Below are positions 5,665 to 43,230 of a stretch of 43,230 nt of DNA, one piece after another. How positions within the stretch are numbered: position 1 is the stretch's first letter; each line of letters begins with the position of its first letter. Source of the DNA: a virus; IMG/VR virus record IMGVR_UViG_3300031576_000116, positions 1-43,230 of that record; one strand, 5' to 3'. The notes beneath the pieces are model-generated. The model worked only from the letters and a program-made list of their open reading frames with translations. It had not been told where the DNA came from and searched no databases. A program made the translations under genes and the position numbers.

Positions 5665-5668
5665 CATA

Positions 5669-9900: not shown

Positions 9901-10275
9901 ATGTCAGAAAGACTTAGCACAATAGAGATGAGCGCTGGGGTTGCGACACTTGTTTCCTCTAGCACGTCTATCATATTTGGTCCGTTCCCTGTCCAGCACT
10001 ACGACGTGGTACGGCTGCACATACAAAATTGCGGAACAATTGCGCTGGGGGTTGCAATCCAGCATTCTCCGATAATGGGGGGGGATGGGTCATACTGGAA
10101 AACATTCACAACCGACACGACTGTTTCCGCCTCGCTGATAGATATTTCTGGAATTTTGTCGGTGTCTATCGCCACAGACAACAACACCAATTACATGCGC
10201 GTTCTAATGACCGCCACAGCAACTGTTAACGCCAGCCAGGTGCGCGCCTTTGTCATCGCTAGAAGGAATTTCTAA
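9901..10275 (+). CDS. Small beta-rich virion protein, paralog 2
   Basis: A 124-residue protein homologous to the gene 10 bases upstream, sharing TSIIFGP, HIQNC, QHSPIMG and SYWKTF motifs at equal spacing. GGGGGTC before ATG serves as ribosome binding site. Shared motif spacing over the entire length means whole-gene duplication, not domain shuffling. A pair of paralogs may assemble as a hetero-oligomer or may represent gene-dosage and antigenic variation. Function unknown. Confidence 0.6.
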   Translation: MSERLSTIEMSAGVATLVSSSTSIIFGPFPVQHYDVVRLHIQNCGTIALGVAIQHSPIMGGDGSYWKTFTTDTTVSASLIDISGILSVSIATDNNTNYMRVLMTATATVNASQVRAFVIARRNF

Positions 10276-10700
10276 TGTTTAGGGCTATAGCATTTTCGAT
10301 TATTATGCTGTACACCCCGCTGCTATTAGCAGAGCGGTATTATGTGGTCGATGGAATTATTCTTGTTAATTCTGATTCCGGTCATTGTATTAGCGACATT
10401 CCCGATGGATTGAAGCCATTTCTATCAGCTGGGCTGCTAAAAGAGATGGCTGTTGCGCACTTGCGATCATACAGCGGCGTAAGAATAGGCATTATCAAGG
10501 ATGGGGAGCCGGAACCGAGATGTTCCGGTGCTAAATATCTTTTGTCCTCCCCGTCTTGGTATGATGACACGCCGATATTGGCGGTCCCTGGAGTTGTGCC
10601 CCTGACGAGACCAGCCATGCAGGCACGATTTGACGAATATTTCCCGGAGGGGACAGTCGCTGCCGGTGGGCATGTTATGCCCAGGAGGGTCATCAGATGA
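10275..10700 (+). CDS. Secreted protein with N-terminal signal peptide, unknown function
   Basis: 141 residues. The N-terminus MFRAIAFSIIMLYTPLLLA is a short positive region followed by a hydrophobic core and a small residue, typical of a Sec signal peptide, with likely cleavage after residue 19. The mature part is small and contains two Cys (about residues 38 and 82) able to form a disulfide in the periplasm. A secreted protein inside a virion structural module is unusual. The ATG overlaps the upstream TAA by one base and the gene overlaps the next by 4 bases. Confidence 0.55.
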   Translation: MFRAIAFSIIMLYTPLLLAERYYVVDGIILVNSDSGHCISDIPDGLKPFLSAGLLKEMAVAHLRSYSGVRIGIIKDGEPEPRCSGAKYLLSSPSWYDDTPILAVPGVVPLTRPAMQARFDEYFPEGTVAAGGHVMPRRVIR

Positions 10701-12208
10701 AGGGGTTTATAATAACTGTGCTATTGTCGTTGTTCCCGGCCAGAGCTTTGGCGGTGGCTCACTCGGGGACATGCTCTAGCGGAACAACCACGTTTGCCGA
10801 TGAGGACACTATCAGCGGAACCCTTACGGTGGCAACCACCTGCACATACCAGACCCCGGCCACTTATGCGGATGTTTATTTCGCCGCTGGCGCATTGCTG
10901 ACTATAACGACTGGCGAATTTAATTCACAGGGAACGACATATGGGACCAGGACGGTTTTCCAGGATGACTCTACCGGCAATGCCGCGCAATGGAATCTAG
11001 GTGGGACCATCCGCATAACCGGGACAACGAGTACCGATATATCTTACATTGAGCAGCGTCAGTGTACCACTACGGGCTGCTTTGAACTAAATGCCGCCAA
11101 GGCAGGGGCAACGATATCTAACTTGATAATCAGAGACAGCGGGTATGGGTTTGAGGATACAGGCACATTGAGTGCTGCCAGCATTAGCAATGTGATTTGG
11201 GTTGGCGGCAAAAAAGCAGCTTCTGGCCCGTGGGATTTAGATGCCGCCGCACATACCGGAACCGTTGATAATTTCTTCTGGTATTCAGCTGGAGAAATGA
11301 GGACAAATTTCGCCGATGATTCGGTGTCAGATTACAATTATACGCAATGGGTTATAATGAATGGGGAACTGAATTTCTCTGGGTCGTCAATTACTCCGAC
11401 GGTTACCGACCTATACCTAATCCATGGAGGGAACGGAGTTGGAGCCATGTCCGCCAATATGGGAGCCTCTGCATCGCTGACCGTAGACACATGCGCTCTG
11501 TATAGCGGTGAGGATGGAGGGGGAGGAAATATAGGGTTCACATTCACAGCGGGGGCTATCACATTGCAAAACTGCGATATTATCGGGTTTGGGAATGATG
11601 CCATGGACGAGTCATTGGGCGGTGCCGCCGAGAACGAATCAGGGAACTATATTGCGGGGAACAATGCGGCAATAATCGGGTTTGCTGCAACATCAACTAC
11701 CTGCGCCGATGCTATTCAGCAATGTGATACTACACTAACCAGGACCGGCCCCGAAACCAGCAGGAACCTACTCTATACAACCGCATCGGTAACATACAAT
11801 ACAAATACCGCTGGGCAGATAACCGCATCTTTCGACACTGCATCGGGGGTGAATTCCAAGATAGCGTGGGGGATTGGGCTGCTTAGATGTGGCACAGTGA
11901 GCGGGACTTACACGCACTATTCTGAGCAAGCAACCCAAATGCACGCACCATATCTGTTGGCTAACTACGGGGATTTCCCTCTTACGCATGGTATGGCTTG
12001 GATTGGGATGCACGCCAATGGACTTACATACCGCCAGACCGCGCACAGTGTTTCCCTGGGATCACTAGCTGGCGGAACCTGGTACTGCGACACAGGGATA
12101 CAGGACCCGTTTGGGAATATACACTGGAATGGCTCGGTTTCGTCCGCACTGACCGTTGCGGGGACGGCGGCGGTCGGAGGAGACCTTGCCGGGTCAGAAC
12201 TGAGGTAG
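10697..12208 (+). CDS. Signal-peptide-bearing beta-helix-like protein
   Basis: A 503-residue protein. Residues 1-20 (MKGFIITVLLSLFPARALA) look like a Sec signal peptide with an ALA cleavage motif. The mature part is rich in Gly, Thr, Ser, Asn and Asp with repeated short strands, as in right-handed parallel beta-helices of tailspikes and secreted adhesins; the stretch from about 130 to 330 has this pattern. There are about ten Cys in the mature protein, which suits oxidation outside the cytoplasm. It overlaps the upstream secreted protein gene by 4 bases. If it is exported it is not a normal virion assembly component; it may act on or coat the host surface. Confidence 0.6.
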   Translation: MKGFIITVLLSLFPARALAVAHSGTCSSGTTTFADEDTISGTLTVATTCTYQTPATYADVYFAAGALLTITTGEFNSQGTTYGTRTVFQDDSTGNAAQWNLGGTIRITGTTSTDISYIEQRQCTTTGCFELNAAKAGATISNLIIRDSGYGFEDTGTLSAASISNVIWVGGKKAASGPWDLDAAAHTGTVDNFFWYSAGEMRTNFADDSVSDYNYTQWVIMNGELNFSGSSITPTVTDLYLIHGGNGVGAMSANMGASASLTVDTCALYSGEDGGGGNIGFTFTAGAITLQNCDIIGFGNDAMDESLGGAAENESGNYIAGNNAAIIGFAATSTTCADAIQQCDTTLTRTGPETSRNLLYTTASVTYNTNTAGQITASFDTASGVNSKIAWGIGLLRCGTVSGTYTHYSEQATQMHAPYLLANYGDFPLTHGMAWIGMHANGLTYRQTAHSVSLGSLAGGTWYCDTGIQDPFGNIHWNGSVSSALTVAGTAAVGGDLAGSELR

Positions 12209-20100: not shown

Positions 20101-20815
20101 TGCCGGGAAAATGATTTACAGCTTCGGCGCAGATCCGCTTGAGGACATATCAGAATTGACAAGTGGTGCTGCCGCATGGGTTGGGCGTGTTCATCCAGCC
20201 ATCAAATATATGGTTGAGTCTGGGCTAGACAAAGATGCATTTGCCGGTCGGCGAATGGTTGAATTCAATAGAGCTAATGAGCTGGGCTTTATTCTAAACG
20301 CAGCAAAGGGACGTGGGATAACCAGGGGGGTTCCTGGGGCGCAGACCCTAGCGCAATCGGTGGCGGAATGGCTAGACCTGCGCAGGGCCGATGACCGCGT
20401 GGTGGCTAACCCGACCAAATTGCATATCATGAGGAGCCTTTTCACTTCCCGCTATCTGTCCACCCTGGGGCTGGCCTCCAAAGAGGACGTTGATATGTCA
20501 ATGAAGCTGGCACGCATTCTCACTGGCGCTACTGCGCTGACTCCGAATGACCCATTTTTCATATATCTGAACAATGTAAAAACCGTCAAGGACCTGGGCG
20601 TTGATAGACTCGTCGGGCAGGGTATGTTCACGGGAGGTGATTTTCCTAGAGCAAACAAGTCCGCATTCAAGAACCCCGTCAAAAGAACCGCTGCGAATAA
20701 ATTAATGAGAGAGTTATTCGAGCGCGCCCGCGAATCAGGCTATTCGATAGACGAGGAAAGGGTGCATAGGACGGTGGAGAAAATAGAAAAATTGTCTTCG
20801 ATTGAGCGCCCATGA
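17198..20815 (+). CDS. Large ejection/polyvalent protein
   Basis: 1205 residues, the largest protein of the window. It is mostly alpha-helical. A region around residues 870-930 carries a pattern shared by many phage polyvalent or ejection proteins: ARFTNYLYWRMAG followed later by LFDYGKVTKAE and LIPFYSFSRNNIENN. Other parts show acidic N-terminal disorder (about 1-95). The protein would be carried in the head and injected with DNA. TTG at 17198 follows AGAGG. It overlaps the next gene by 4 bases. Confidence 0.7.
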   Translation: MPAPDPGHKNKFTTKAEAYGLDIEDPDTPDIMMEMAGPADDAFNAISEMDLGAEDIGGEPDISDLAMDDLPSIDDEYGGILDANEPDTASAYVRQHTRKLDDKAAQGRGIIGTLMDGLQWWENARVGVVRGALGLQSARPVKFKNQTFEDMLVNDFGMEKSGITTAAAFLADTVMAPETYLSFGLSTVGKGARLGQNAVKGIFRELPLSGNAFLKKDGSLIINELGRRELREMAENAAIEQFGEDVIKKNASEAEAFMREFILKEQEKIVPQLASANDKLSRMNKIGLTHKGAVIFRQEVGDRLAGKFTPDVLEKGLAKEIVAQTEDEVLGVLDDIATSAKIVDDAVAGRFLDKKTGEISKGLIDAGGIKVYVPFTKIERTIVSGEKIKNIVNSSGLPGWLSRQASAGTLVGRSAEYLDARWFDMKTYARKTFGGNALNITDEAIEQRLKVAAVDGYEYAERVAQRGVKISDQMLAENAETFIFNLSKHASQAARKHYEKVVGEEIGFFKELSGEQKVKFVKAMVGHLNVERGRGVKADFDITKMVDDPVVQKKINEWKARSPQLAEEAGLTVDEHYANYLPFLNKGAVDSYIRKAKDGKILGDRLRLAERDYLIEAKTRGEQVYKSPAALVTALRSQIMVGNIRDEIVMKTAREFGKVFNNPFEARRQGYISIMGEAEETARWELLSRKTQNVAKGLAKELGTDSVNKIYIPNRVHKSLQENKYLQRYSIPLVTAFTNKLKYHLTVPFPAFTARNAISNTVLNAANIGLHAVSPKKNKMAIDAILGRNLDNMITNDAGEKFTLGQLLDDAKSRGLIGDAIHDMPKALMSPNESFAAKAKAAVWALNPLAERGYWGRMMQHMSRSVENQARFTNYLYWRMAGLDGKFSAQQALDTLFDYGKVTKAESVIKHLIPFYSFSRNNIENNWKLFKQRPGVIAGRMKFWNHFGPNEEEFKNLPDWAKKKFTLAAGKMIYSFGADPLEDISELTSGAAAWVGRVHPAIKYMVESGLDKDAFAGRRMVEFNRANELGFILNAAKGRGITRGVPGAQTLAQSVAEWLDLRRADDRVVANPTKLHIMRSLFTSRYLSTLGLASKEDVDMSMKLARILTGATALTPNDPFFIYLNNVKTVKDLGVDRLVGQGMFTGGDFPRANKSAFKNPVKRTAANKLMRELFERARESGYSIDEERVHRTVEKIEKLSSIERP

Positions 20816-21201
20816 GGAAAATACCGTTCCGGCATACCCAAAACGTAGTAAATGAGGCGCAAAACCTCAATGAGAACCTGTCCTTTTTAGAGAGATACAG
20901 GCTAGAAAGTGTCCTTTATCGCACAAGCGCATCGGCTTCAGTGCTATTCCCCGCGCAGGAGTTAGAGAGCGGAAGGCAGCGGGCAGTTGGCACTGGAACC
21001 TCCTCAGTGGTGGTTACCATCCCATTACAACAGCGATATAACAGTGTCCTTGGTTGCAATTTAACGCCGATTGGCATATCTTGGACGGCCCGCATCAGCG
21101 ATGTAACGGCCAGCAGCCTAGCTGTTCAGCTAGACGCCACCGCATCTTTGGGAACCGCCGCCTATGAGTTTTTTTGGGAACTCCGAGGGAGGTTAGAATG
21201 A
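20812..21201 (+). CDS. Small beta-rich virion protein
   Basis: 129 residues. The N-terminal 40 residues are helical and charged (HTQNVVNEAQNLNENLSFLERYRL), and the rest is Ser/Thr/Ala-rich beta, ending in FFWELRGRLE. The start ATG overlaps the stop of the ejection protein and the stop overlaps the next start, so it is in the late operon. It may be a distal tail or capsid accessory protein. Unknown family. Confidence 0.45.
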   Translation: MRKIPFRHTQNVVNEAQNLNENLSFLERYRLESVLYRTSASASVLFPAQELESGRQRAVGTGTSSVVVTIPLQQRYNSVLGCNLTPIGISWTARISDVTASSLAVQLDATASLGTAAYEFFWELRGRLE

Positions 21202-22214: not shown

Positions 22215-22553
22215 ATGGCTTATAAATCGGCTCCAAAAAATATAGCTCGTCATGAAATAGACCAACAAACTGGGGAAATTAATTATATAAAAAAAGAATT
22301 CAATGATGATTTCTTCTTTAGAAAGACACGCGCCATTTCCATCACAGCGCAACACCTGGATATGGTTTCTAGCGGTGGTATAGTTGTTGTTGACATCCGG
22401 CATCGCGGCGTAGTGGTATCGGCTAGTAAGCAGACAATAAAGAATAATTCAAAGATTTTTACATTTAATAAGGAGGTGAAATATTATCTTACTGTCGATA
22501 AGTGGGACGTTCTTTCTGGTGATGCCGAATGGGTGCATGGTTTGCCAATATGA
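22215..22553 (+). CDS. Hypothetical protein upstream of the methyltransferase
   Basis: 112 residues from ATG at 22215 (a GTG at 22197 is an alternative and would add six residues). Neither start has a good ribosome binding site. Mixed alpha/beta, with a basic N-terminus (MAYKSAPKNIARHE) and beta strands around GGIVVVDIRHRGVVVSA. Its stop overlaps the methyltransferase start. Function not recognised. Confidence 0.45.
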   Translation: MAYKSAPKNIARHEIDQQTGEINYIKKEFNDDFFFRKTRAISITAQHLDMVSSGGIVVVDIRHRGVVVSASKQTIKNNSKIFTFNKEVKYYLTVDKWDVLSGDAEWVHGLPI

Positions 22554-23347
22554 TATTCAGATACCCCGGCGGCAAAACAAGATTATTGAAAGAAATAATC
22601 CCGGGGCTGTTGAGGCTAGACCACTCTGGCGACTATTATGAGCCGTTCGTAGGGGGCGGATCTGTGGCTTGTAGAATCGCGAAGGATTTTAGGGGGAAAA
22701 TTATAAACGTAAATGACGCCGATCCGTGGATATATTCTTTTTGGAAGCTATTCGAGCTTGATTCCGATAGTGATTTTTACAGGCTTTTTTCTATGATTAA
22801 TACCGCCCCCACAATCAAAAAATTCTTAAAGCTCAGGGGGTATCGCGCAAATGGGGGCACCGTTGACCTAGCATATAAAGCTATTTTTTTTAACCGAACT
22901 ACGTTCTCCGGGATAGCATCAGCGGGGCCAATCGGCGGGATTATGCAGAAAAGCAAATGGAAGATAGATTGCCGGTACAACCCGAAACTAATGATTTCAA
23001 AAATCAATGAGATGCGAGCGCTATTCCGCTCCAGGATACGAGTTAGCAACCTCCATTTCATAGATTTTATTAAAAAGATACCACAAATTGGGTCTTTTAT
23101 TTACGCCGACCCGCCATATTACAAAAAGGGTCGTGATCTTTACAACATCTGGATGAACGAAAATGAGCATATCGCCCTGTCTAGGATATTACATCGGCGG
23201 AGGAACTGGCTACTCTCATATGACGATTCCCCGGTCATTAGGGCATTGTATGCGCCGTCGGGTGTAAGAAATATTTCGGTTCGGTACTCTTCTTCTGGCG
23301 GTAAAAAGAGTTGGAAAAACGGGAATGAGTTTTTGATAAGCGGCTAA
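22550..23347 (+). CDS. D12-class DNA N6-adenine methyltransferase (Dam-like)
   Basis: 265 residues. It transfers a methyl group from S-adenosylmethionine to adenine in DNA. The N-terminal FRYPGGKTRLL (3-13), the SAM-binding motif EPFVGGGS (31-38) and the catalytic DPPY (187-190) are diagnostic, and the FNRTTFSGI block (114-122) matches the family. I chose ATG at 22550, which overlaps the upstream stop as ATGA, over an upstream in-frame ATG at 22529. Recognition may be GATC-like by family but cannot be read here. Role: protect phage DNA from host restriction or regulate packaging/replication. Confidence 0.9.
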   Translation: MIFRYPGGKTRLLKEIIPGLLRLDHSGDYYEPFVGGGSVACRIAKDFRGKIINVNDADPWIYSFWKLFELDSDSDFYRLFSMINTAPTIKKFLKLRGYRANGGTVDLAYKAIFFNRTTFSGIASAGPIGGIMQKSKWKIDCRYNPKLMISKINEMRALFRSRIRVSNLHFIDFIKKIPQIGSFIYADPPYYKKGRDLYNIWMNENEHIALSRILHRRRNWLLSYDDSPVIRALYAPSGVRNISVRYSSSGGKKSWKNGNEFLISG

Positions 23348-23607
23348 GGACCCAACAGGGAACGCAGCAAAGACTTTGCCAAATAAATGATTGATTCCCC
23401 AGCCACGTTTATAACCGCCGCCCATGCAACATAGCCCAATATTAGCAGCCCGCCAGCTCCGTCGCGAAGTTCTTTCCACAGCGAGCGCTTGCGGTCGAAG
23501 GTCAATGCCTGCTTTAGCCAGTCGAATAACCAGAATAATCGCTCTCTCGCCCTAAGTAGAAGGGTGCGCTGTTTCGGTCGGGTCCTGGCTTGCCGTTGTT
23601 TTTTCAT
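23344..23607 (-). CDS. Small basic membrane protein at the end of the glycosylation operon
   Basis: 87 residues. The first 45 residues are strongly basic (MKKQRQARTRPKQR...), and a transmembrane segment spans about 51-73 (GGLLILGYVAWAAVINVAG). It overlaps the 3' end of the Maf-like gene by 56 bases and ends 4 bases inside the convergent methyltransferase gene. A basic head plus one TM could localise partner proteins at the membrane. No family recognised. Confidence 0.5.
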   Translation of the reverse strand: MKKQRQARTRPKQRTLLLRARERLFWLFDWLKQALTFDRKRSLWKELRDGAGGLLILGYVAWAAVINVAGESIIYLAKSLLRSLLGP

Positions 23608-25606
23608 CGCTTACCCAGCTTTCTCCCTCGTCCGCCCCATCGAGGACTAGTTTTGCTGTAGAACTTTTATATAATTCGTCGTACCCATCATTAGTGTAGA
23701 GATGTACCTTGTCGCGGGAGTTTTCGCCCTTGTTGACATTCTCTAAGATACCAATAAATTTCTCCAAATAGAATTCAATGCTATTATAAAATCCCATTGT
23801 TATCTTGCAATAATGCCACATACGTTCATCTGGCGCGTCCAACACATTATGCAACCGGTTGATGTTGTTCTCATAGAAATACAGGTCTAACTGCAAAACA
23901 TCTAGCAGCATCATGCGGAATGTCATGTTGTACCAGTATTTGTTTTTGAACCCATCTAGCGTGTCCGCGCAATTTTTCATCAACTTCTCGTAATTGGCTT
24001 TATCCCCCCTGACAGCTAGAACAAACTGGTATGGAGTAAGCGCGGTGTCCCTGGACTTTCTATTCAATTTGTCGATTTCGGATTCCATGACAGAGATGGA
24101 GTTTTTGCACTCAGCCATATTGGCGCGCAAGTGGTTGATGCATTTATGCAGTTTTGTAACTGTGCGCAGGTTGATTTCCTTGAAGGTTTTCCATTGCTCC
24201 TCTGGGCCGGCAGTGAATAGCTCGGCTAGGCGCTGGTCGATATCGGCAGCCTTGGTGGTTGCGAAGAGCGGGCGCAGGGCGAGCCATGGCTTGTATGTGG
24301 CCCCAACGATTCTAGCTCCCTCACCGGATGTGTTATAAACAACCTTCTCTTTGCCCTTCACAACGTTCCATTTGTGGATCCCTTGCTCGTACTCGTGCAG
24401 GCACCGAACCCATACTGGTATTGTAGTGGATTTCCCTCCGCTATTCGTTTCCACATCTACCCATTTGGACTTAGACGACTCTATATTAAATTCAACCTGT
24501 GTTCCTTCGGTGTGTGATTTGCCTCCGATGAACGCCAAATCGATGCCGGTGAATATAGCAGTTTTTGCTATTCTAAAGGCGATCTCAGCAGCGGCGTTAC
24601 CAGCAGATACTCCACCGTTGATTTGACCATTACGATACTTGGTGTATAGACAAGAACCGTTGGCTCTGAATATATAAAAGAATTTTTCGAACATATCGAA
24701 ATATTCCGGCGGTGTCCATGGGTATGCTGCATAATAGACCCCTTTTGTATCTTCTGGCTTCAGGTCCTGGAATATGGTGGTTAATTTGCGTTCGCATCTG
24801 GTCACGATATGGGGCCTGATGCCAGCCCGGCGCAGCTTGGGCAGGACTGCGTCAGCGGCGATGATTAGCGCTTTTTTCAGGTCCTGGTTATCTCTGTACT
24901 CGGCGATAAAGTCCTCCAATGAGGGGCCACCACCGCACACGATAATGGGCACATCCTCGAATTTGTCGAACAGCGCACTGATATCCCCTCCCTTGCGCAT
25001 ATTATAGGCGTTAGCAAACATCAACTGCCAGCGCTGGAAAGAATCCTCGGAGCACCCCATCGATAGCTCTAGCTGTTTGTGGGATGCCTTAACCGCCTCC
25101 ATGATTTTGGCCTGTTCAATCTTTTCCTCTGGAGTGTTCCACCTGAATGGATCAACAATAATTTCAGAGTTCTGAATTTTGAAAGCACGCGGCAATGATG
25201 TCTCGCTTTGGTAGACATAGGACCTATATAGTTCTGCTAACAGCGCATCCGGGGCTAGCCCGATCTTGAGGTCAATATTTTCATTGGTCAATAGATCAAC
25301 TATATTCTCTGTCCGCATAACATGCTTGAACACGCCGAGGTCAGGCTCAATGATAATTATTACATCGTTGCGCTTTCCCTTGGATTTAATGGCGTCGATA
25401 ATGCGCCTTGTAGTGAATCCAACCTGGATGATAACGAGTGGATTACGTGGGTTCGCCTGGATATCTATGTCAATCGGTATGGGGCGCTCGGTGGCGCGCA
25501 CGATTGCCTGGCGATCACCCTCTTTTATCGCCTGCATGTTTAGCTTCTCGATATATTCGTTGTATGGCCTGGTGACTAATTTTTTCTCTAGTGTATCGTT
25601 TTCCAT
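23552..25606 (-). CDS. Maf/DUF115-family glycosyltransferase (nonulosonate transferase-like)
   Basis: 684 residues. The DUF115/MptE-like core is clear: VCGGGPSLEDF (223-233), IIAADAVLPKL (248-258), GIRPHIVTR (262-270) and the GGVSAGNAAAEIAF / FTGIDLAF / GGKSHTEG segment (331-368). Bacterial Maf proteins use this fold to move CMP-activated pseudaminic or legionaminic acid onto Ser/Thr of flagellin in the cytoplasm. The N-terminal 150 residues and helical C-terminal 200 residues also match the Maf layout. ATG follows GGAGGT. It overlaps the upstream neuC-like gene by 19 bases, so it is translated with the three enzymes that would make its donor. The acceptor is unknown. Confidence 0.85.
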   Translation of the reverse strand: MENDTLEKKLVTRPYNEYIEKLNMQAIKEGDRQAIVRATERPIPIDIDIQANPRNPLVIIQVGFTTRRIIDAIKSKGKRNDVIIIIEPDLGVFKHVMRTENIVDLLTNENIDLKIGLAPDALLAELYRSYVYQSETSLPRAFKIQNSEIIVDPFRWNTPEEKIEQAKIMEAVKASHKQLELSMGCSEDSFQRWQLMFANAYNMRKGGDISALFDKFEDVPIIVCGGGPSLEDFIAEYRDNQDLKKALIIAADAVLPKLRRAGIRPHIVTRCERKLTTIFQDLKPEDTKGVYYAAYPWTPPEYFDMFEKFFYIFRANGSCLYTKYRNGQINGGVSAGNAAAEIAFRIAKTAIFTGIDLAFIGGKSHTEGTQVEFNIESSKSKWVDVETNSGGKSTTIPVWVRCLHEYEQGIHKWNVVKGKEKVVYNTSGEGARIVGATYKPWLALRPLFATTKAADIDQRLAELFTAGPEEQWKTFKEINLRTVTKLHKCINHLRANMAECKNSISVMESEIDKLNRKSRDTALTPYQFVLAVRGDKANYEKLMKNCADTLDGFKNKYWYNMTFRMMLLDVLQLDLYFYENNINRLHNVLDAPDERMWHYCKITMGFYNSIEFYLEKFIGILENVNKGENSRDKVHLYTNDGYDELYKSSTAKLVLDGADEGESWVSDEKTTASQDPTETAHPST

Positions 25607-26655
25607 GGCAATACCTCCAGTTGTGAAACAATCCGCTCGGACGCCTTTCCGTCGCCAAACATCAGCGATGGGTTAGGATTATATTCGCATACTCTATCAA
25701 TGGCCTCGAATATGCCGTCGAAACCACAATGCCAGGTACATTCTGATCGCGCTCTACCCCATTGTCGCCTACCGATATCTAGTGCCGGTATTCCCAGCGC
25801 AGATGACTCGCGGATGCCAGCGCTGGAATTGCCGATGATAGCCCTAGCGCCAGCGAGCAAACGCAAGAAATCTACTCCACCGATATTGGGGTGCAACTTG
25901 ATCCCCATCGTGTTTTGTACGGCCAGAACCTCCTCACATCCTGGGTCGTTGTTAGAAGCGAACCAGTAACAATGCATATTGTGTTCTTTGCAATACCATG
26001 ACACCACATCAATAATGCACTCGACCTGACTATTGGCGACGGTGATCTCGTTTGTATGCGGATGGAATATACAGATGATATATCTACTGTTGCTGTTGTT
26101 TTTTTTTATCCCGGCCTCTCTGATAACATCTATAGATGGGCATCCTAATTCATAGATGTAATTTGGGTTCCCCTTGATTTTGCGCACAATTTCCGCTGCC
26201 TGGAAGTGTGGCGGGAAGTGATAATCAGACAGAGCGGTAACCGAATGCCGGACCTTGTTGTCGATATTGCCGGACACCTCCCCGCCCTGGATATGGGCGA
26301 GCGGGATATGTAGGTACGCGGCTGCCGCCGCCCATGGCAATGTTTCAAATCTATCTGCGATGGCAATCACTCCTCCGATTTCTCGACTATGCAGGAAGGC
26401 CGCGAATTTTTTGAACAAGTCACCAGCCGTGTGCGCCATTGAAAGCAAACTTCTTCGGTATTCTGTGTCGATGGCGTCTGTGCCTGGATGCTGCAATTCA
26501 ATCTCAATCCGAGTGTGCTTGTTCTCCTCATACAATAAGGAGCTTGTGAGAACAATTAGTGGTTTTAGCTTTTTGCTCTTTTCCAGCTTATCCAATAATA
26601 TTTCATGCCTATAGAACGTGGCACGATTGGCTAGCATAACAGCGATATTAATCAT
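25588..26655 (-). CDS. neuC: UDP-GlcNAc 2-epimerase, hydrolysing (NeuC/LegG family)
   Basis: 355 residues, full length for the family. Hydrolysing 2-epimerases convert UDP-GlcNAc (or a related nucleotide sugar) to free ManNAc (or a ManNAc-like sugar), the first step to sialic-type acids. Motifs: DRFE (101-104), HIQGGEVSG (121-129), RHSVTALSDYHF (136-147), HP (198-199), GNSSAGIRE (275-283), the RQWGR loop (297-301) and FGDGKASERI (333-342). It has a GT-B two-Rossmann layout. Overlaps neuB-like and Maf genes by 8 and 19 bases. Sugar specificity cannot be read from sequence alone. Confidence 0.9.
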   Translation of the reverse strand: MINIAVMLANRATFYRHEILLDKLEKSKKLKPLIVLTSSLLYEENKHTRIEIELQHPGTDAIDTEYRRSLLSMAHTAGDLFKKFAAFLHSREIGGVIAIADRFETLPWAAAAAYLHIPLAHIQGGEVSGNIDNKVRHSVTALSDYHFPPHFQAAEIVRKIKGNPNYIYELGCPSIDVIREAGIKKNNSNSRYIICIFHPHTNEITVANSQVECIIDVVSWYCKEHNMHCYWFASNNDPGCEEVLAVQNTMGIKLHPNIGGVDFLRLLAGARAIIGNSSAGIRESSALGIPALDIGRRQWGRARSECTWHCGFDGIFEAIDRVCEYNPNPSLMFGDGKASERIVSQLEVLPWKTIH

Positions 26656-27439
26656 CGCTTTTTATGTATTCTAGGCTATAAAGCTTAAAATTTCTTAACT
26701 CTTCCTCCGTCGGGGAATCCTCTCCGCTAGTCCCTAGCACATGCTTTATTTTATTAGACAGACATACCCACTCTGTTATGTCAGTCTCATATGTGCGCTT
26801 GCGCTTACGGTCATTGAAATGTTTCTCGATGTAATCCGCCCCCAGCATATGTGCGTAAAAACAGTCGTCTACGCCAACACTATGATCTGAATATCCAGCT
26901 CTCCCATACTTTTGCACGAATTCGCCAATCCGCCAGAAGCGAGGGCTCGTTGCCGGATACTCGGACCGGCAGGAATAGTAGACGATTCGTTTTATTTCTG
27001 ATTCGTATTTCCTGGCTACCTTCAGAAACGTGCTGAAGTCGTGGAAGCCAGTGGAGATATGGACTTCCTCGAAGCGGTCTAGGCAGCGCCTAATCATAGT
27101 GTCGTTGGCCATAAACGTAGACGGTATTTTTACTATTCGCGTAAAAAAAGACAGAGGCAGAATAACAGAAGTATTAAATACAGAGCAGTGCAACCCAATT
27201 TTATTCTCCTTAGCATATTCCCCAAGTTCCCTCAATTGGTCCATGGTCAAGTGCGCCACATCATATCTTGGCGCGTTCGGATGCGCTGGGTTTATAAGTT
27301 TTCTATCATAAGCCTGGAATTTTACATTATCGAAACCGGCAAGCTTGGCAAGCCCAATTAAACGCTTCGCCTCTGCCATATCTCCCATGTGGTTCTTGGC
27401 AATCTCTGCGGTAGTGATGGGCATCCCGGTGTCAGACAA
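26648..27439 (-). CDS. neuB: Nonulosonic (sialic-type) acid synthase, NeuB family, TIM barrel only
   Basis: 263 residues. The enzyme condenses a ManNAc-type sugar with phosphoenolpyruvate to give the nine-carbon acid. AEIAKNHMGDM (11-21), VKFQAY (39-44), STGFHD (129-134), SEYPA (159-163), GYSDHSVG (182-189) and ADYIEKHF (201-208) are family motifs. The metal ligands correspond to His186 and His207. Bacterial NeuB is about 340-350 residues with a C-terminal SAF (antifreeze-like) domain. Here the chain stops after the barrel, so that domain is missing. Overlaps the neuA-like gene by 8 bases. Confidence 0.88.
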   Translation of the reverse strand: MSDTGMPITTAEIAKNHMGDMAEAKRLIGLAKLAGFDNVKFQAYDRKLINPAHPNAPRYDVAHLTMDQLRELGEYAKENKIGLHCSVFNTSVILPLSFFTRIVKIPSTFMANDTMIRRCLDRFEEVHISTGFHDFSTFLKVARKYESEIKRIVYYSCRSEYPATSPRFWRIGEFVQKYGRAGYSDHSVGVDDCFYAHMLGADYIEKHFNDRKRKRTYETDITEWVCLSNKIKHVLGTSGEDSPTEEELRNFKLYSLEYIKSDD

Positions 27440-28121
27440 TGCGCACCTTTCCTAGCATCAATAGCCGCTTCGCTGTGGCGAAATCCTCCTCGGCGTCTAG
27501 GTTAGTCCCTCTATCCCTGGGGATTTCTAGCGGCACACATGGGCGGACATAAAAACTTTTCCCTGCGATGAATTCTTCGACTCGTGCAACATACAGGTTC
27601 CCGCTACGGATATAGACCTTGATCAGGTCTTGCTTGTTCTCAAAATTGGAATGCCTAAGGTGACATAGCGATCCCTCTGAAATCGTGTACATGCGATTTG
27701 GGTGCTCGGTAACCTCTTTGACCGTAATCAGGCTTTTAGTTCCAGACTGATGAATCAATTTCTTGGCAGTTTTTACGTCTGCGATTGAAGTGAACGGGCT
27801 GGTGACCTGCCAAAGCCATATCCATTGGTAGCCACCATGACTGCGCAGAACATCCATTACAACATCCACAGCAAGGCTGTCATCTTGGCACAAGTTGAGC
27901 GGTCGTCGCCAATACTCCCAACGATCGTTTCCCTGTATGCCTAGTTCATGCTTGGAATAATCGGTGGTCACGACAATATGATTGAATTCATTGGAGTTGA
28001 CCGCCTTATCTACAGCGATATCGACCAATGTCCTCCCGTTTAGTTTCAGGAGATTTTTGTTTTTAATTGACTTCGACCCAGCCCTAACCGGGACAATGCA
28101 TAGGTGTCGTTCTGGCATCAT
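27432..28121 (-). CDS. neuA: CMP-nonulosonate (sialic acid) synthetase, NeuA family
   Basis: 229 residues, normal size for NeuA/LegF/PseF enzymes. They activate the acid with CTP to CMP-sugar. The nucleotide-binding loop is IVPVRAGSKSIKNKN (9-23). WLWQVTSPF (around 103-111) takes the place of the common LLQPTSP, and NLDAEEDFATAKRLL near the C-terminus supplies the acidic metal-binding segment. The gene overlaps the SAM methyltransferase by 4 bases. It provides the donor for the Maf-like transferase at the end of the operon. Confidence 0.88.
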   Translation of the reverse strand: MMPERHLCIVPVRAGSKSIKNKNLLKLNGRTLVDIAVDKAVNSNEFNHIVVTTDYSKHELGIQGNDRWEYWRRPLNLCQDDSLAVDVVMDVLRSHGGYQWIWLWQVTSPFTSIADVKTAKKLIHQSGTKSLITVKEVTEHPNRMYTISEGSLCHLRHSNFENKQDLIKVYIRSGNLYVARVEEFIAGKSFYVRPCVPLEIPRDRGTNLDAEEDFATAKRLLMLGKVRIV

Positions 28122-29011
28122 TTCCTCTTATAAATTGATATGATTTTATACCCAGCTCCGGAGGCGCATATTTGCTCTGGAGTGGGCAGCAGCGGTGTTC
28201 GGAAATCTAGTTCTCCACATTGCGCGTATGGGTCTAGCCCATAAAACATTTTAGCTACCGGCAAATATTCTGGCTCTATCGTACATCCGGCGACGGGAGT
28301 GTATCCAGATTTGTACAGGAGCCTGTCTAGTGTTTGCTTATTAAAAAAATAAAGGTGCTGGGGCACAAATGAGCAACATTTATATTTTAGGCGTTGGATA
28401 ACCAGAGAATCTAGGTTTGGAACGCAGGCGACTAGATAGGAATCGCTAACGCAGAATTTCTTCAGAGAACCAATCATTTGCAGTGGGTCCTTGAGATGTT
28501 CAATCACTCCCCATAGGGATAGCACATTAAAGAAATCCATCTGCAGCGCTCCGATTTCGGCTGGGCGAACGGCGGACACGCCCTTTACACCGTTGGAAAT
28601 ACGAAGCGCCTCCTCGTTGGCCTCGACCCCGAACGAAACGGAATCGTCGTCTACCAAATACGACAAGAATGTCCCATTGCCGCATCCATAGTCTAATGTG
28701 TTTTTCAGCCCTTTTGTCTTAATGAAATCTACGGCAAAACGAAATTTGTCGGCTTGCCTGATGCGCTCTAACTCAGACAGTTTGATCCGCGCCCATTCTG
28801 TCATTGGAGCCGATTCCATATAGAATTCTTTTAGCGATTCGTCCGTCGGCATATCGGCACGCCAGGCAAACCCGCACTCGCATCGATAATATAATGGCTC
28901 TCCAAATAAATACTCGTAGTTGGATTCTCCGCACAGATAGCATAGGTGTACGTGTTCGGTGGGCTTGTTGCGGAACCATTCGTGCGTTTTAGAGAAATAC
29001 CCATCGTACAT
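28118..29011 (-). CDS. SAM-dependent methyltransferase with N-terminal zinc ribbon
   Basis: 297 residues. An N-terminal ribbon has CYLC (24-27) and CEC (44-46), followed by the class I SAM motif LDYGCGNGTF (106-115), with an ALQMDFFNVLSLWGVIEHL stretch as motif II/III. This layout, a small zinc ribbon joined to a class I methyltransferase, is common in surface-glycan clusters, where it methylates sugars. Here it sits between GroEL and NeuA, which suggests it modifies the nonulosonate or a precursor (inference). The start is ATG at 29011, directly after the GroEL stop. Confidence 0.75.
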   Translation of the reverse strand: MYDGYFSKTHEWFRNKPTEHVHLCYLCGESNYEYLFGEPLYYRCECGFAWRADMPTDESLKEFYMESAPMTEWARIKLSELERIRQADKFRFAVDFIKTKGLKNTLDYGCGNGTFLSYLVDDDSVSFGVEANEEALRISNGVKGVSAVRPAEIGALQMDFFNVLSLWGVIEHLKDPLQMIGSLKKFCVSDSYLVACVPNLDSLVIQRLKYKCCSFVPQHLYFFNKQTLDRLLYKSGYTPVAGCTIEPEYLPVAKMFYGLDPYAQCGELDFRTPLLPTPEQICASGAGYKIISIYKRK

Positions 29012-30604
29012 TTAGTCCTCCGGAGAATTGACAATCCCAACTTCCGTAGTTAAAAATGTTCCGGCAACACTGGCGGCGTTAGCAAGCGCACTCCATACTA
29101 CCTTGGCGGGGTCGAGAATGCCCAAAACATATAGGTCGCCATGCTCTATATTTCGCACATCTAGTCCAAAGAAAAATGAGTTATCCTGGGAGACCTTCCC
29201 CCACTCAGCTTCCGGGTCCATCCCCGCATTGCGCAGGATTTGTTCGTAAGGATATTTAATAGCAGCCAAAACCACTCTGCCACCAGGGGTCACCCATATA
29301 TTAGCCAGTTCTGTGTTGTTCTCGATCTCGTCCGCAATTCTGCGTAATGCCAGTCCACCGCCAGGGAGAACCCCGTCCTCAGCTGCCGCCCTGGTCGCAT
29401 TGATGGCGTCCTCCAGGAGCAATTTTTTATCTCCCATTTCGGTCTCTGAGTTGGCACCAAGGCTGATTAGGGCGATCCCCTGGGATAACCTGCGCCAGCG
29501 GTCCAACACCTTAGCCTGCTCTTTCGGCTTGTCTTTGAGCAACAATGCCTGTTCTTTTAGTTCAACGAGTCGTGCTGAAATATTCCCCCCCCCGTCAAAG
29601 ATAGTGGTATCATCGGCTGATATCACAATCCTAGCAGCAGATCCCAGCATGTCTAATTCAAGTGTCTTAGCCTGCACGCCGAAATCAGGAGAAACTAATT
29701 TAGCACCAGTCAGGGTACATAAATCATAAACCCAGTCTGACATATCTGTGCCAAACCCAGGCGCATCGATTGGGATGCACTTAACACCTTTCTCAACGTA
29801 GTTTTTTATGATATTCGCCAGAACTCTGTCGTCGAATCCAGCAGCGATAATTATTAATTTATGGCCAGCCTTGAAGCATTTCACCATAATTGGTGCTACA
29901 TCAACCTCGAAGTTGTCCAGCTTGTAGTCGCAAATCATAAAACGCGGATTGTGGAATTCGGCGATGCGCCTGCCTGAGTTCGTGGTCAGTAGCGGGGAAA
30001 ATAGACCTCGCTCAAATTGCACTCCGTCAACGGTGCGTAGGGTTGTCTCGGAGCCGAGCGCCTCATTGACGGCGATAACGCCCATGGATCCGACTTTCTC
30101 CATCGCCTCCGCTATTAGCCTCCCGAATTGCGTATCTCCGTTCGACGCAATGGTGGCAACATGGAATAAGTCGGTGTTGTTTTCCGCCGGTATTGCACGT
30201 TTTTTTATTTGCTCAACGACGAGTGCCGAAGCGGCTAATATTTCACGACGCAGCAACATCGGATCTGCGCCGTCCTCTATCATATCTAGTCCCTTAGCGT
30301 AGATTTCCCGTGCGAGAACCGTCGCGGTAGTGGTGCCGTCGCCGCCGTCTTTGTTCGTTTTCGCGGAGGCGTCTTTGACGAGTTGCGCGCCTGCGTTTTC
30401 CGCGTTATCTCGGAGGAAAATGTTTTTGGCCGTGGTAACGCCGTCTTTCGTGAGGAGGGGGGTTCTGTCTCCCTTGTCAATGAGCACATTGCGTCCCGCC
30501 GGACCGAGAGTTGCCTCGACAGCATTCGCCAGTTTATTAACTCCCGCAAAAAGCTTCTGACGGATTTCAGAACCATAGATTAGTTCCTTGTGTTTCGCTG
30601 GCAT
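29012..30604 (-). CDS. groL: Phage-encoded GroEL-type chaperonin
   Basis: 530 residues. LGPAGRNV (33-40), DGVTTAK (54-60) and GDGTTTAT (88-95) are the ATP-binding motifs, and the catalytic Asp region reads SLGANSETEMGDKKLLLEDAINATRAAAEDGVLPGGG, with the conserved Asp in place. The chain ends at EVGIVNSPED without the GGM-repeat tail of bacterial GroEL. ATG at 30604 has a strong ribosome binding site (GGGAGGG). An ORF extension upstream adds 21 residues but lacks support. It directly follows GroES, so it should fold phage and possibly operon proteins. Confidence 0.93.
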   Translation of the reverse strand: MPAKHKELIYGSEIRQKLFAGVNKLANAVEATLGPAGRNVLIDKGDRTPLLTKDGVTTAKNIFLRDNAENAGAQLVKDASAKTNKDGGDGTTTATVLAREIYAKGLDMIEDGADPMLLRREILAASALVVEQIKKRAIPAENNTDLFHVATIASNGDTQFGRLIAEAMEKVGSMGVIAVNEALGSETTLRTVDGVQFERGLFSPLLTTNSGRRIAEFHNPRFMICDYKLDNFEVDVAPIMVKCFKAGHKLIIIAAGFDDRVLANIIKNYVEKGVKCIPIDAPGFGTDMSDWVYDLCTLTGAKLVSPDFGVQAKTLELDMLGSAARIVISADDTTIFDGGGNISARLVELKEQALLLKDKPKEQAKVLDRWRRLSQGIALISLGANSETEMGDKKLLLEDAINATRAAAEDGVLPGGGLALRRIADEIENNTELANIWVTPGGRVVLAAIKYPYEQILRNAGMDPEAEWGKVSQDNSFFFGLDVRNIEHGDLYVLGILDPAKVVWSALANAASVAGTFLTTEVGIVNSPED

Positions 30605-30605
30605 A

Positions 30606-30878
30606 TTACCCTCCCTGCCGCATCCAAATATCCTCGACACAAAGTAGCAACAGCCCCTCCCCGCCAACCTGTACCTCGCTGCCAGCCCACCTGGAAAACA
30701 AAACCAAATCCCCGGCTGATACCGTTTTCACTTGGTCGCCGACAGAAATGACGGTACCCTCGTACGGTGCTTCCTGAGATGTGCTTGTCAGCAGGATCCC
30801 CTCGTCTGTTTCGAGACGCTTTTCTTGCCGCCGCACTACCAGCTTATCGCTGAGTGGCTGCCATTGCGATTTCGTCAT
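30606..30878 (-). CDS. groS: GroES-type co-chaperonin
   Basis: 90 residues, the usual co-chaperonin length. PLSDKLVVRRQEK (8-20) matches the N-terminal strand, and ETDEGILLTSTSQ (23-35) is the mobile-loop region, with GILL as the hydrophobic contact to GroEL. Later strands with EGTVISVGD and SAGDLVLF also match. GAGGAG precedes the ATG. It overlaps the upstream dehydrogenase by 35 bases and stands 1 base before GroEL, giving a groES-groEL operon inside a larger leftward operon. Confidence 0.92.
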   Translation of the reverse strand: MTKSQWQPLSDKLVVRRQEKRLETDEGILLTSTSQEAPYEGTVISVGDQVKTVSAGDLVLFSRWAGSEVQVGGEGLLLLCVEDIWMRQGG

Positions 30879-31698
30879 GTGCGATTTGCTCCTCTAGTTT
30901 TGCTGCGCAATAGAGCGACGTCATCTCCAGATCCTCATTAGTCCACCCGCCCAAGTGGGGGGTGATGACGCAGTTTTCGAGATTCTGGAAATTATTCAGG
31001 TTCGGCGGTGTCGGTTCACCACGCAAAACATCTAGCGCTATGCCGCTAAACTTGCCAGACAATGCCAGTAGAGATGCCTCGTCCACATATTCTCCCCTTG
31101 ACGTGTTAACGAACCATGCCCCATTTTTCATCGTCAGAAGCTGCTTCCTGCCGAAAACAACCTCTGGGGTGGGCATCCTGACGTGCAGGGTCACGATGTC
31201 GCAAGACAGGCATTCGTACTCGACCGAGGGGTCCATCGACACGTCGTATGGTACGGATTTCATCCCGAGCCCAGCCGCTATTTGTTCGACCTGGTGTCCT
31301 ATTCTCCCATATCCATATATGCCAATCGTTTTACCGAATAGCTTATGCCCTGGAATTCCACGGTCCCATCGTAGGATTGGCTTTTTAATGCCCCTGGCGA
31401 GCCCTAGGATGAGCCCGAAGGTGTGCTCGGCGGTACTGGTGACCCCTTTTATGTCTGATGTGTTTTCTAGGAATATTATTTTAGAATCTAACTTATCGTT
31501 TATATGACCTAATCCGGTAGTATTGGAAACTATGTAACGTAGGTTGGCGTGAACTATGCGGTCAGTAGCCAAAGTATGTAGCCCGGTGACTATCACCGTG
31601 GCCTCATACTGGTTGTATACCACATCCCCAATACGGCTGTATGCCGCAAGAACCTTCGGCGATGATTCCCTATATAAAAAATATACACTTTGTCGCAT
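30844..31698 (-). CDS. D-isomer-specific 2-hydroxyacid dehydrogenase (phosphoglycerate-dehydrogenase-like)
   Basis: 284 residues from ATG at 31698. An in-frame TTG at 31749 would add 17 residues. It has the Rossmann NAD-binding motif GYGRIG (129-134) and the catalytic set Arg201 (NTSRGEYVDE), Glu228 (RGEP) and His248 (TPHLGG). It is the first gene of the leftward operon, before groES. Substrate unknown. Dehydrogenases of this family sit in several surface-sugar clusters, so it may prepare or modify a sugar acid or supply a linker (inference). Confidence 0.82.
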   Translation of the reverse strand: MRQSVYFLYRESSPKVLAAYSRIGDVVYNQYEATVIVTGLHTLATDRIVHANLRYIVSNTTGLGHINDKLDSKIIFLENTSDIKGVTSTAEHTFGLILGLARGIKKPILRWDRGIPGHKLFGKTIGIYGYGRIGHQVEQIAAGLGMKSVPYDVSMDPSVEYECLSCDIVTLHVRMPTPEVVFGRKQLLTMKNGAWFVNTSRGEYVDEASLLALSGKFSGIALDVLRGEPTPPNLNNFQNLENCVITPHLGGWTNEDLEMTSLYCAAKLEEQIAHDEIAMAATQR

Positions 31699-36968: not shown

Positions 36969-37072
36969 TAGACGGGATTAGGTTGACGCGGGAGGGGGAG
37001 TTTGCTCAACCAATGAATTGCTGGATGCTGACAAAAAAGCTGTGGATTGCGATACTACATTAAATAAATATC

Positions 37073-37118
37073 TAAGATTGCAGGTGCATCGTGATTGATA
37101 ATAAAATTGCTAAATGGG
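37073..37118. repeat. 46-bp direct repeat, left copy
   Basis: Matches 38132-38177 with a single mismatch (45 of 46 identical). It begins TAAGATTGCAGG and ends GCTAAATGGG. Between the two copies lies a cassette with three genes. The right copy includes the start of a small membrane-protein gene, and the left copy carries the same first nine codons but no functional continuation. Confidence 0.85.
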
Positions 37119-37124: not shown

Positions 37125-37433
37125 ATGCAAAACAAAGAAACAGAGCATTTAGCCGGTAAATTTGTTCTATTGACCACGGACCATACCCGCCGAGGGGTAT
37201 TTGCCGGAAAGTTGATTGAGCATTCCGGGACAACTGCTAGACTGTCTGATGCTCATATGGTGATATATTGGAGTTCATCCGTTAGAGGGTTGTTGGGTCT
37301 TGCGGCCAATGGGCCGGATGACAAATGCAGAATTACCGCCGCTGTGCCTGAAATATATCTCGAGGGGGTAGACTGCATCATGGCTATTTCCGAAAAAGCC
37401 TTTCCGCGATGGGATAAAGTGCCGTGGAAATAA
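37125..37433 (+). CDS. DUF6948-like phage protein
   Basis: 102 residues from ATG at 37125 (GGGG upstream). It carries the pattern of this small phage family: a TARLSDAHMVIYWSS segment, GLLGLAANGP near residue 65-74, CRITAAVPEIYLEGVDCIM, and a C-terminal W(D)KVPWK tail. Function unknown. In metagenomic phages it commonly stands next to a Gly-Tyr-repeat protein, as here (recall, not checked). It is the first gene inside the direct-repeat cassette. Confidence 0.6.
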   Translation: MQNKETEHLAGKFVLLTTDHTRRGVFAGKLIEHSGTTARLSDAHMVIYWSSSVRGLLGLAANGPDDKCRITAAVPEIYLEGVDCIMAISEKAFPRWDKVPWK

Positions 37434-37846
37434 TAAAACAAGAATGGCTTGACGCCGCTAAGAAAGCTAGTGCTTGCGAGATTAGATTAAACGAATATCG
37501 AGCGGGCACGCCCATATCTGTGCCGACATTTAGCGATGCAATTTGGATTATAGATAATCTGCCGGAAATAAAATTAAGATTGCCGATAATCTGGTATTTG
37601 CATGGTGTTGGCTATGGATATGGCATTGGCTATGGCGTTGGCTATGGCGGTGGCTATGGCGATGGCTATGGCGTTGGCTATGGCGGTGGCTATGGCGTTG
37701 GCTATGGCGGTGGCGATGGCTATGGCGTTGGCTATGGCGTTGGCTGTGGCGGTGGCTATGGCGTTGGCTATGGCGGTGGCGATGGCGATGGCTATGGCGA
37801 TGGCTATGGCGTTGGCTGTGGGAATAATCCCATAAAATTTGAATAG
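37424..37846 (+). CDS. Gly-Tyr-repeat protein
   Basis: 140 residues. A normal N-terminal domain (1-58, about FSDAIWIIDNLPEIKLRLP) precedes a C-terminal domain of about 72 residues built from GYG-V/G/D/I units, ending in NNPIKFE. The repeats would form a flexible or amyloid-like surface. The underlying DNA is a tandem array of 6-base units (GGCTAT/GGCGTT/GGCGGT). GTG at 37424 overlaps the previous gene. Function not established; binding or stickiness is inference. Confidence 0.65.
   Translation: MEIIKQEWLDAAKKASACEIRLNEYRAGTPISVPTFSDAIWIIDNLPEIKLRLPIIWYLHGVGYGYGIGYGVGYGGGYGDGYGVGYGGGYGVGYGGGDGYGVGYGVGCGGGYGVGYGGGDGDGYGDGYGVGCGNNPIKFE
37604..37821. repeat. Hexanucleotide-type tandem repeats within the Gly-Tyr protein gene
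   Basis: More than 30 consecutive 6-base units of the type GGCTAT, GGCGTT, GGCGGT and GGCGAT. Because the unit is a multiple of three, frames other than the real one also remain open (a run of Ala/Met/Val in another frame), which explains the extra long ORFs here. Length changes by slippage would keep the frame in multiples of two codons. Confidence 0.9.
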
Positions 37847-38153
37847 CTGCACATGCAGATCGGAGGTTGCGGTGTCATTTGACAACATAAATGTCGGCGA
37901 TATCGTGCAAGTGGATTGGATTGACCATTGGGGGTGTAACATTTCCGGCTGGGCTGATTCATCAAAAATTAGGGCGAAACCATACTCATTTAAGAGTGCG
38001 GGGTTTGTTTTGTTCCAAGATGAAACAGTAATTGTGTTATCAATATCTGTTAGCTTGGAAAAAAACATAAATAATGCTTTAGACTGTATGGCGACTGCCG
38101 GCATTATAAAAAGTGCTATAACCAAAATAAATAAGATTGCAGGTGCACCGTGA
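37839..38153 (+). CDS. Small hypothetical protein of the cassette
   Basis: 104 residues, TTG or ATG-like start at the head (start 37839 is in the frame; upstream GGAGG-type site is unclear). Mixed beta (SFDNINVGDIVQVDWIDHW, SH3-like start) and C-terminal helix with SLEKNINNALDCM. Its last codons (NKIAGAP) lie in the right direct repeat. Function not recognised. Its start is uncertain because ATTTGAATAG precedes it. Confidence 0.45.
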   Translation: MNSCTCRSEVAVSFDNINVGDIVQVDWIDHWGCNISGWADSSKIRAKPYSFKSAGFVLFQDETVIVLSISVSLEKNINNALDCMATAGIIKSAITKINKIAGAP

Positions 38154-38177
38154 TTGATAATAAAATTGCTAAATGGG
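38132..38177. repeat. 46-bp direct repeat, right copy
   Basis: Right-hand partner of 37073-37118. It spans the end of the 104-residue cassette protein and the first nine codons of the 46-residue membrane protein, so the same DNA serves two genes in the right copy. The single mismatch is in the Pro/Ser-like codon before the stop. Confidence 0.85.
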
Positions 38178-42671: not shown

Positions 42672-43019
42672 GCTTTCTTGCTTAACATAAAATCGATCCC
42701 CTACAAATACCAAAACACTGGCGTCTTACCACACCGCCCTCTTTCTTTTTGTCGTCAAATATCAATAACCAAAATTAGTGATTATTCCCAGTGCTCTTAT
42801 ATCCTGGTATTTATATACATGTGTTTATATACCTCTGTTTTTGTATTTGTTTGCTTCCCGCGTCTTATTGTATTTCTTTATGTTAGGCAAGCACCCTTGA
42901 CGCGGGTCGCCGCGTCTCGTGTTCTTATATCACCCTCTCCAAGTCCGGGCGGTATTTTTGACATAACCCTTGGAATATAGTACCTTTAGATCAACAGTAT
43001 GGGTTAGAGTGGGGGTTTA
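42672..43019. other. Noncoding region upstream of terS and the methyltransferase remnant
   Basis: No convincing gene. The left part is AT-rich with TTTATATA repeats (about 42809-42832) around ACATGT; the right part, from 42858, is the terminal repeat with its hairpin (42899-42916) and TTGACA box. It could contain packaging signals and the divergent promoters. Confidence 0.4.
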
Positions 43020-43230
43020 GTGTCAGGTAAGAGGACGGGCAGGCCGACTGGTGCGCCTAAGCCAGATAGGGAGGAGCGGGTAGTGGTACCGAAGGTTTCC
43101 CCCATACACGGCTTAGCGGTCCAGGACGTCCTAGAAGAGGCACTTCGCATCATACCCCGTGTTATCCCGACCGGCGGCGGGGAAGCGCTCCTAGCGAATC
43201 CTGGAGCGTCTGGAGAGCTATTAGCGATCC
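42858..43230. repeat. Terminal direct repeat, right copy
   Basis: Repeats positions 1-373 with 7 differences. See the left copy for details. Confidence 0.9.
43020..43230 (+). CDS. Terminase small subunit, partial second copy at the window end
   Basis: The first 70 codons of terS repeated at the window end. Compared with the left copy it has Thr at position 10 and Ser at position 27, where the left copy has Val and Asp. It is cut by the end of the window and reflects the wrap-around. Confidence 0.8.
   Translation, partial: MSGKRTGRPTGAPKPDREERVVVPKVSPIHGLAVQDVLEEALRIIPRVIPTGGGEALLANPGASGELLAI

Follow-up and report, generated by a model that had tools for sequence, protein, structure and literature searches.

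Cellular protein glycosyltransferases of the Maf/PseD type (PF01973; structure 5MU5) and the routes to N-acetylneuraminic acid (Neu5Ac) and legionaminic acid (NeuC-NeuB-NeuA and LegG-LegI-LegF) are the closest described systems to the genes reported here, which lie in a stretch of viral DNA of 43,230 nucleotides (IMG/VR virus record IMGVR_UViG_3300031576_000116, positions 1 to 43,230; "the window" hereafter means this whole stretch). A leftward operon in the window holds the same three enzyme families as these routes in adjacent genes, together with a Maf-type protein that shares with the cellular enzymes the DUF115 domain, a nearly full-length fold and the linkage to a nonulosonate pathway. 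The window differs from the Neu5Ac and legionaminic acid routes, however, in its NeuB, which is predicted to lack the SAF (antifreeze-like) domain, in the constant presence of a protein of the D-2-hydroxyacid dehydrogenase family (HADH) and of a methyltransferase (MT), and in that no dehydratase or aminotransferase family was matched among the window proteins scanned. The Mafs of this phage and its relatives differ from the cellular ones in forming a clade of their own, in a distinctive RCERK/YAAYPW core and in being linked to virion genes instead of a flagellin gene.

We propose that these genes constitute a virion-linked module for O-glycosylation with a nonulosonic acid, most likely acting on a protein of the virion. 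Based on sequence comparisons and structure models, we give this reading about an even chance of being correct. That the kit shares its descent with the genes that build the particle suggests that the phage sugar-coats its own particle. The operon runs from 31698 to 23552, with its genes transcribed in the order HADH, GroES, GroEL, MT, NeuA, NeuB, NeuC and Maf, and its features are the following (Pfam gathering cut-offs in brackets for the four core proteins).

30844..31698, minus strand: HADH, D-2-hydroxyacid dehydrogenase family (phosphoglycerate/D-lactate dehydrogenase type), first gene of the operon; PF02826, 108 bits
30606..30878, minus strand: GroES co-chaperonin; PF00166, 61 bits; phrog_3188
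29012..30604, minus strand: GroEL chaperonin; PF00118; NF009487, 499 bits
28118..29011, minus strand: MT, class I S-adenosylmethionine-dependent methyltransferase with a Cys-rich (zinc-ribbon-like) N-terminal part; PF13489, 60 bits
27432..28121, minus strand: NeuA/PseF-like cytidine monophosphate (CMP)-nonulosonate cytidylyltransferase; PF02348, 54.6 bits (22.6)
26648..27439, minus strand: NeuB-family nonulosonate synthase, a TIM barrel without SAF domain; PF03102, 95.9 bits (22.1)
25588..26655, minus strand: NeuC-family hydrolysing 2-epimerase of uridine diphosphate N-acetylglucosamine (UDP-GlcNAc); PF02350, 155.3 bits (30.6)
23552..25606, minus strand: Maf-type (DUF115/MptE-like) protein glycosyltransferase, 684 amino acids; PF01973, 84.7 bits (34.6)
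23344..23607, minus strand: small open reading frame (ORF) of 87 amino acids with a hydrophobic stretch, overlapping the 3' end of the Maf gene

Scans of IMG/VR with an alignment of NeuC, and then with an alignment of the phage Mafs, recovered five further contigs (L009/G001, L011/G002, L033/G009, L035/G010 and L036/G011), which have the virion cassette of the window, with portal identity of 33-46%. Scans of viral contigs with single window proteins (Maf, NeuB, NeuC or portal) returned no relatives, nor did one with a two-sequence Maf alignment. L009 is 42,084 bp long and circular by a 123-bp end repeat; its NeuB gene spans the circular junction and is intact. HADH, MT, NeuA, NeuB, NeuC and Maf are present in all six phages. 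L033 has the gene order of the window, GroES and GroEL included; in the other four, HADH is encoded by the other strand and NeuB comes after Maf, and L009 has an additional gene for a UDP-sugar dehydrogenase.

Clustering of all ORFs gave exactly 15 families common to the six phages, namely the six of the module and nine of the virion cassette (terminase, portal and seven others including the major capsid protein), with no replication or lysis gene common to all six. Two trees, from concatenated module proteins and concatenated virion proteins, both separate the window and L033 from the four other phages with support of 100/100, and both contain a split of L011 and L036 with support of at least 98; the remaining node is weak in both. 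Genome GC (guanine plus cytosine) content among these phages ranges from 35% to about 48%, and their early genes are unrelated. The simplest reading would be that the module and the virion genes have long been inherited together while early genes were exchanged. By these sequence comparisons, the module belongs to the core that the phage clade has in common, having apparently co-diverged with the virion cassette, and is not a private accessory set. Since the six genes share their descent with the virion cassette and with no replication gene, we consider a virion protein the most likely acceptor.

A candidate for this acceptor lies in the virion region.

20812..21201, plus strand: putative acceptor, a small virion-region protein with an N-terminal helix and a beta-sandwich

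In four of the relatives the module has the ejection-protein region on one side and lysis-type genes on the other, next to a homologue of this small beta-sandwich protein, which occurs in five of the phages. Its AlphaFold2 model (predicted local distance difference test score, pLDDT, 74) matches the folds of phage tail-fibre and H-type lectin proteins, with a best E value of 1.1e-5. The Maf of C. botulinum accepts CMP-Neu5Ac and modifies flagellin chimeras bearing an unrelated beta-sandwich protein (PMC11339370), which makes a non-flagellin acceptor chemically plausible.

The mechanism that follows is inferred from these data, as regards what the enzymes do, which sugar they make, how MT and HADH contribute, which protein is the acceptor and how the phage would benefit. 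NeuC would free and epimerise the sugar of a UDP-GlcNAc-type donor to yield a free mannosamine-type sugar, NeuB would join that sugar with phosphoenolpyruvate into a nine-carbon (nonulosonic) acid, and NeuA would activate this acid with CMP. MT and HADH, as constant members, would probably modify this sugar, either directly or on a substituent. The Maf-type enzyme would then move the sugar to Ser or Thr residues of a protein in the cytoplasm of the infected cell, for example a small beta-sandwich tail-fibre or lectin-like virion protein, and the glycosylated product might change what the particle binds or hide the particle.

The assignment of the four core proteins to the NeuA, NeuB, NeuC and DUF115/Maf families, proposed in a preliminary description of this DNA, was borne out by searches with hidden Markov models, in which all four exceed the Pfam gathering cut-offs and neither NeuB nor NeuC falls into an unrelated family. 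They miss the NCBIfam equivalog cut-offs, however, and were therefore filed at family level, not as named equivalogs: NeuC scores 214.8 bits against a cut-off of 235.9 (TIGR03568) and is NeuC-like at family level only, NeuB 88.5 against 399.65, NeuA 95.1 against 205.7 (TIGR03584, PseF), and Maf 70.2 against 670 (NF050051, PseD), so that we do not call it PseD. The core catalytic residues of NeuC, NeuB and NeuA are nevertheless invariant across phages whose proteins are 21-40% identical to those of the window. NeuC matches the GNE structure 4ZHT with an E value of 3e-30, and its residues D101, E126, D132 and H198 are invariant in comparison with GNE and two bacterial hydrolysing epimerase sequences as well as in all six phages; we take these conserved Asp, Glu, Asp and His residues to be catalytic, with roles as in E. 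coli NeuC. NeuA matches the CMP-Neu5Ac synthetase 1EYR (E value 1.2e-15) and retains the residues of the nucleotide-binding motif in every one of the six.

NeuB, at 263 amino acids, ends shortly after the TIM barrel, and its C-terminus has no Pfam match to a SAF domain. A six-row profile (five of the phages and the jumbo phage LR756508) found as its best structural relative 6NCS, a sialic acid synthetase entry of 290 amino acids that is likewise short (169 bits). Core residues, including two conserved His that presumably bind metal, are invariant across the phages with full sequence aligned, and the protein deviates at the loop following the second of these His. An acidic residue of the active site seemed at first to be missing from NeuB, a concern that was dropped once closer relatives were compared, as an acidic residue aligns at that place. 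The product of the pathway is more likely to be Neu5Ac-like, or legionaminate-like if the host supplies precursors, than pseudaminate, because a NeuC is present and the proteins scanned include no dehydratase or aminotransferase family; the NeuC type itself argues against the canonical PseG-based pseudaminate route.

The transferase was modelled with AlphaFold2 from the six-sequence alignment. The model (mean pLDDT 81) matches 5MU5, the Maf of Magnetospirillum magneticum AMB-1, over 677 alignment columns with an E value of 4.9e-17, the sole solved structure with an E value below 0.001, and it retains the multi-domain Maf architecture including the helical C-terminal domain. The nearly full-length match agrees with the earlier call of a Maf-type transferase, while the moderate template modelling (TM) scores (0.51/0.55) and large root-mean-square deviation suggest a different orientation of domains. 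The preliminary description had also claimed a complete donor-to-transfer module, of which the gene set stands, in one phage, by protein families and by the Maf fold. When the six phage Mafs were placed in a tree alongside 21 cellular rows, they grouped together as a single clade with support of 100/100. A tblastn search of 50,697 phage records and 72,556 plasmid records yielded no relative of the Maf, and no match was confirmed when genomes were scanned with the alignment of phage Mafs. A profile of the phage Mafs did, however, detect cellular homologues, among them two Maf-sized ORFs in a Helicobacter genome and, in sampled genomes of a deltaproteobacterial phylum, proteins related over most of the chain with scores up to 193 bits, and the null genome scan therefore reflects peptide patterns specific to the phage proteins. 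Among the cellular Mafs found, the nearest lie in flagellin-glycosylation islands, several of which include a NeuB/PseI-type synthase.

Of the two further constant members, HADH resembles phosphoglycerate, D-lactate and glyoxylate dehydrogenases, and a profile of the six phage sequences matches 1WWK with 171 bits. Its nicotinamide adenine dinucleotide (NAD) motif, Arg and His are conserved; the Glu-Pro motif typical of the D-2-hydroxyacid dehydrogenase family occurs only in the window copy and is missing in the other five phages. The MT proteins are 30-35% identical among the six phages. MT was also tried as a pointer to a bacterial source cluster and rejected, as none of 66 relatives was accompanied by the remaining module genes. 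The GroES gene sits at the same position in L033, and the window GroEL is 37-38% identical to the GroEL at the matching place there; being present in only these two phages, the chaperonins are at most helpers.

The layout of the operon agrees with the preliminary report of a leftward operon with overlapping NeuC, NeuB, NeuA and DUF115/Maf genes. Consecutive genes from MT through Maf overlap by 4, 8, 8 and 19 bp, and the reading frames are all intact. The gene set reported earlier was right for the four named genes but too small for the unit, as HADH and MT, present in all six phages, had been left out and GroES, present with GroEL in two, had been overlooked. The most likely start of HADH is the ATG at 31698, which lines up with the start of HADH in the relatives. 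With the GroES gene between HADH and GroEL, the latter starts at the ATG at 30604 and not at the TTG at 30667. The ORF at 23344-23607 is doubtful and may not be a gene, having no match in Pfam, PHROGs or NCBIfam and no relative in the five other phages. As a separate observation, a D12-class adenine DNA methyltransferase gene (22529-23347) ends at the 3' side of the module, and its product scores 197 bits with PADLOC PD-Lambda-5_B.

Several points weigh against a module that acts on the virion. To our knowledge, every characterised Maf acts on flagellin, and a flagellin-type gene lies near two of the nearest cellular Maf homologues (L152 and L153). The equivalog cut-offs are missed by all four core proteins. 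In the window and in L033 the module lies on the strand opposite the virion genes, so that joint expression is not required. Furthermore, all relatives were retrieved through NeuC or Maf, and the presence of the module in six of six phages is thus ascertainment-biased by construction. A scan with an alignment of the major capsid protein recovered the same five contigs and only three fragments besides (L118, L119 and L123), which end before the place where the module would be expected and are neither counter-examples nor independent support. The agreement of the two trees, and the lack of any other shared non-virion gene, depend less on that ascertainment.

The main alternative, unlikely but serious, is that the target of the pathway and its Maf is flagellin, or some other protein exposed on the host cell, whose modification during infection would block flagellotropic competitors or alter motility. 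Known Maf acceptors are flagellins (PMC11339370), the Maf architecture with its helical C-terminal domain is kept in the model, and the cellular islands with a NeuB/PseI-type synthase include the two close to a flagellin gene; no flagellin family, for its part, was matched among the window proteins scanned. This alternative fits poorly with the co-divergence of the module and the virion genes, in a set of phages that differ greatly in GC content and whose early genes are unrelated; this co-divergence favours a virion acceptor over host flagellin. Moreover, no integrase or repressor family was matched among the window proteins, so that infection is probably lytic and would leave little time to remodel flagella. 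We regard it as quite improbable that the nonulosonic acid is destined for a polysaccharide of host or phage (capsule, O-antigen conversion or superinfection exclusion), with the Maf-like protein targeting a glycan. Phage-driven modification of O-antigen is well known (PMC12826054), phage-encoded change of a capsule nonulosonate is also known (PMC12053666), and NeuB-NeuC-NeuA occur together with GT29 sialyltransferase-like and other glycosyltransferase genes in further viral contigs. The transferase of the window, however, follows the Maf fold almost from end to end, and no GT29 (PF00777), flippase or polymerase family was matched among the proteins scanned.

It is very improbable, in our view, that the set is decayed or repurposed, a NeuB without SAF domain and a divergent HADH making no nonulosonate while the operon serves another role. 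The missed equivalog cut-offs, the altered NeuB loop and the absence of the Glu-Pro motif from five of six HADH copies would be expected of such a set; the intact frames and the invariant core residues of NeuC, NeuB and NeuA at such low identity would not, and the short 6NCS, the best structural relative of NeuB, is itself a solved sialic-acid synthetase entry. We therefore retain the virion protein as the preferred acceptor. A more specific version, in which a phage-specific Maf places a possibly methylated nonulosonic acid on the phage's own tail or head proteins as a clade-specific system outside flagella, passed on along with the particle genes and giving the particles a sialic-acid-like coat, is tentative and falls somewhat short of an even chance.

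The genome that carries the module is probably complete at about 42.86 kb, because the termini of the window overlap by 373 bp at 98.1% identity (1-373 versus 42858-43230). About 2% of the positions in this overlap mismatch, which suggests that strains vary at the circular junction or that it contains sequencing errors. The P22-like portal (a match to PF16510) and a terminase, also matched in the window, support a tailed, short-tailed phage, as had been claimed for this DNA. Prediction of the host failed: the window contains no tRNA, its portal is only about 21-25% identical to those of isolate phages, and the GC content of the relatives is widely spread. The terminase large subunits of the window (738-3032) and of L033/G009 (3457-5931) each contain one large intein-like insert, at two different sites, and the four other relatives have no insert. 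Within the virion region, the ORFs at 10275-10700 and 10697-12208 have signal-peptide-like N-termini, unusual for virion proteins, and no relatives in the five other phages. Elsewhere, an ORF at 37424-37846 encodes a Gly/Tyr-rich repeat (GYGxGYG) from about 15 copies of 12-nt DNA repeats in register, and a direct repeat of 53 bp (94% identical) occurs at 37066-37118 and 38125-38177, with a spacing of about 1 kb.

If the proposed function is correct, some phages would use relatives of flagellin-glycosylation enzymes to mask or adjust their own particles chemically with acidic sugars, which would bear on phage receptor binding, on the recognition of phages and on competition between phages. The module would also be a compact natural system for placing nonulosonic acids on non-flagellin proteins, and the acceptor specificity of Maf would become testable, since the search for the acceptor should come down to a small number of virion proteins. 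In the open-access papers searched, no description of a phage Maf module was found; subscription papers were outside this search.

The three-enzyme route had been thought unusual in a phage, but by itself it is not. Two other phage contigs (L018 and L024), which also hold phage-type genes for a clamp loader, DNA ligase or endolysin, encode NeuB-NeuC-NeuA followed by a GT29 sialyltransferase-like gene; their transferase is not a Maf, and they have no match to HADH, MT or Maf. GT29 is likewise present in the 484-kb uncultured genome of the jumbo phage LR756508.1 (L007, 310763-335416), where NeuB lies beside several GT29-like ORFs and nucleotide-sugar enzymes, and L029 holds NeuB, NeuC and NeuA with no Maf match within the stretch examined. 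Cassettes of the L018/L024 type may be a second way in which phages make and transfer nonulosonic acids. DUF115 folds as in the window Maf also occur in MptE-like proteins of uncultured Caudovirales in BFVD, which match the Maf model only in part (TM-score by query 0.22-0.31, 12-19% identity). Lysogenic-conversion enzymes such as Acinetobacter epaA/epaB (PMC12053666) are, as here, phage genes that alter nonulosonic acid chemistry; they modify a sugar of the host capsule, whereas the window encodes a donor pathway and a protein-type transferase, with no integrase family matched. Coupling of Maf with the Neu route was found only in this clade of six phages, and what appears to be new in comparison with these systems is that the Neu route is joined to a Maf from a phage-specific clade, together with HADH and MT, and that the whole is linked to the virion cassette.

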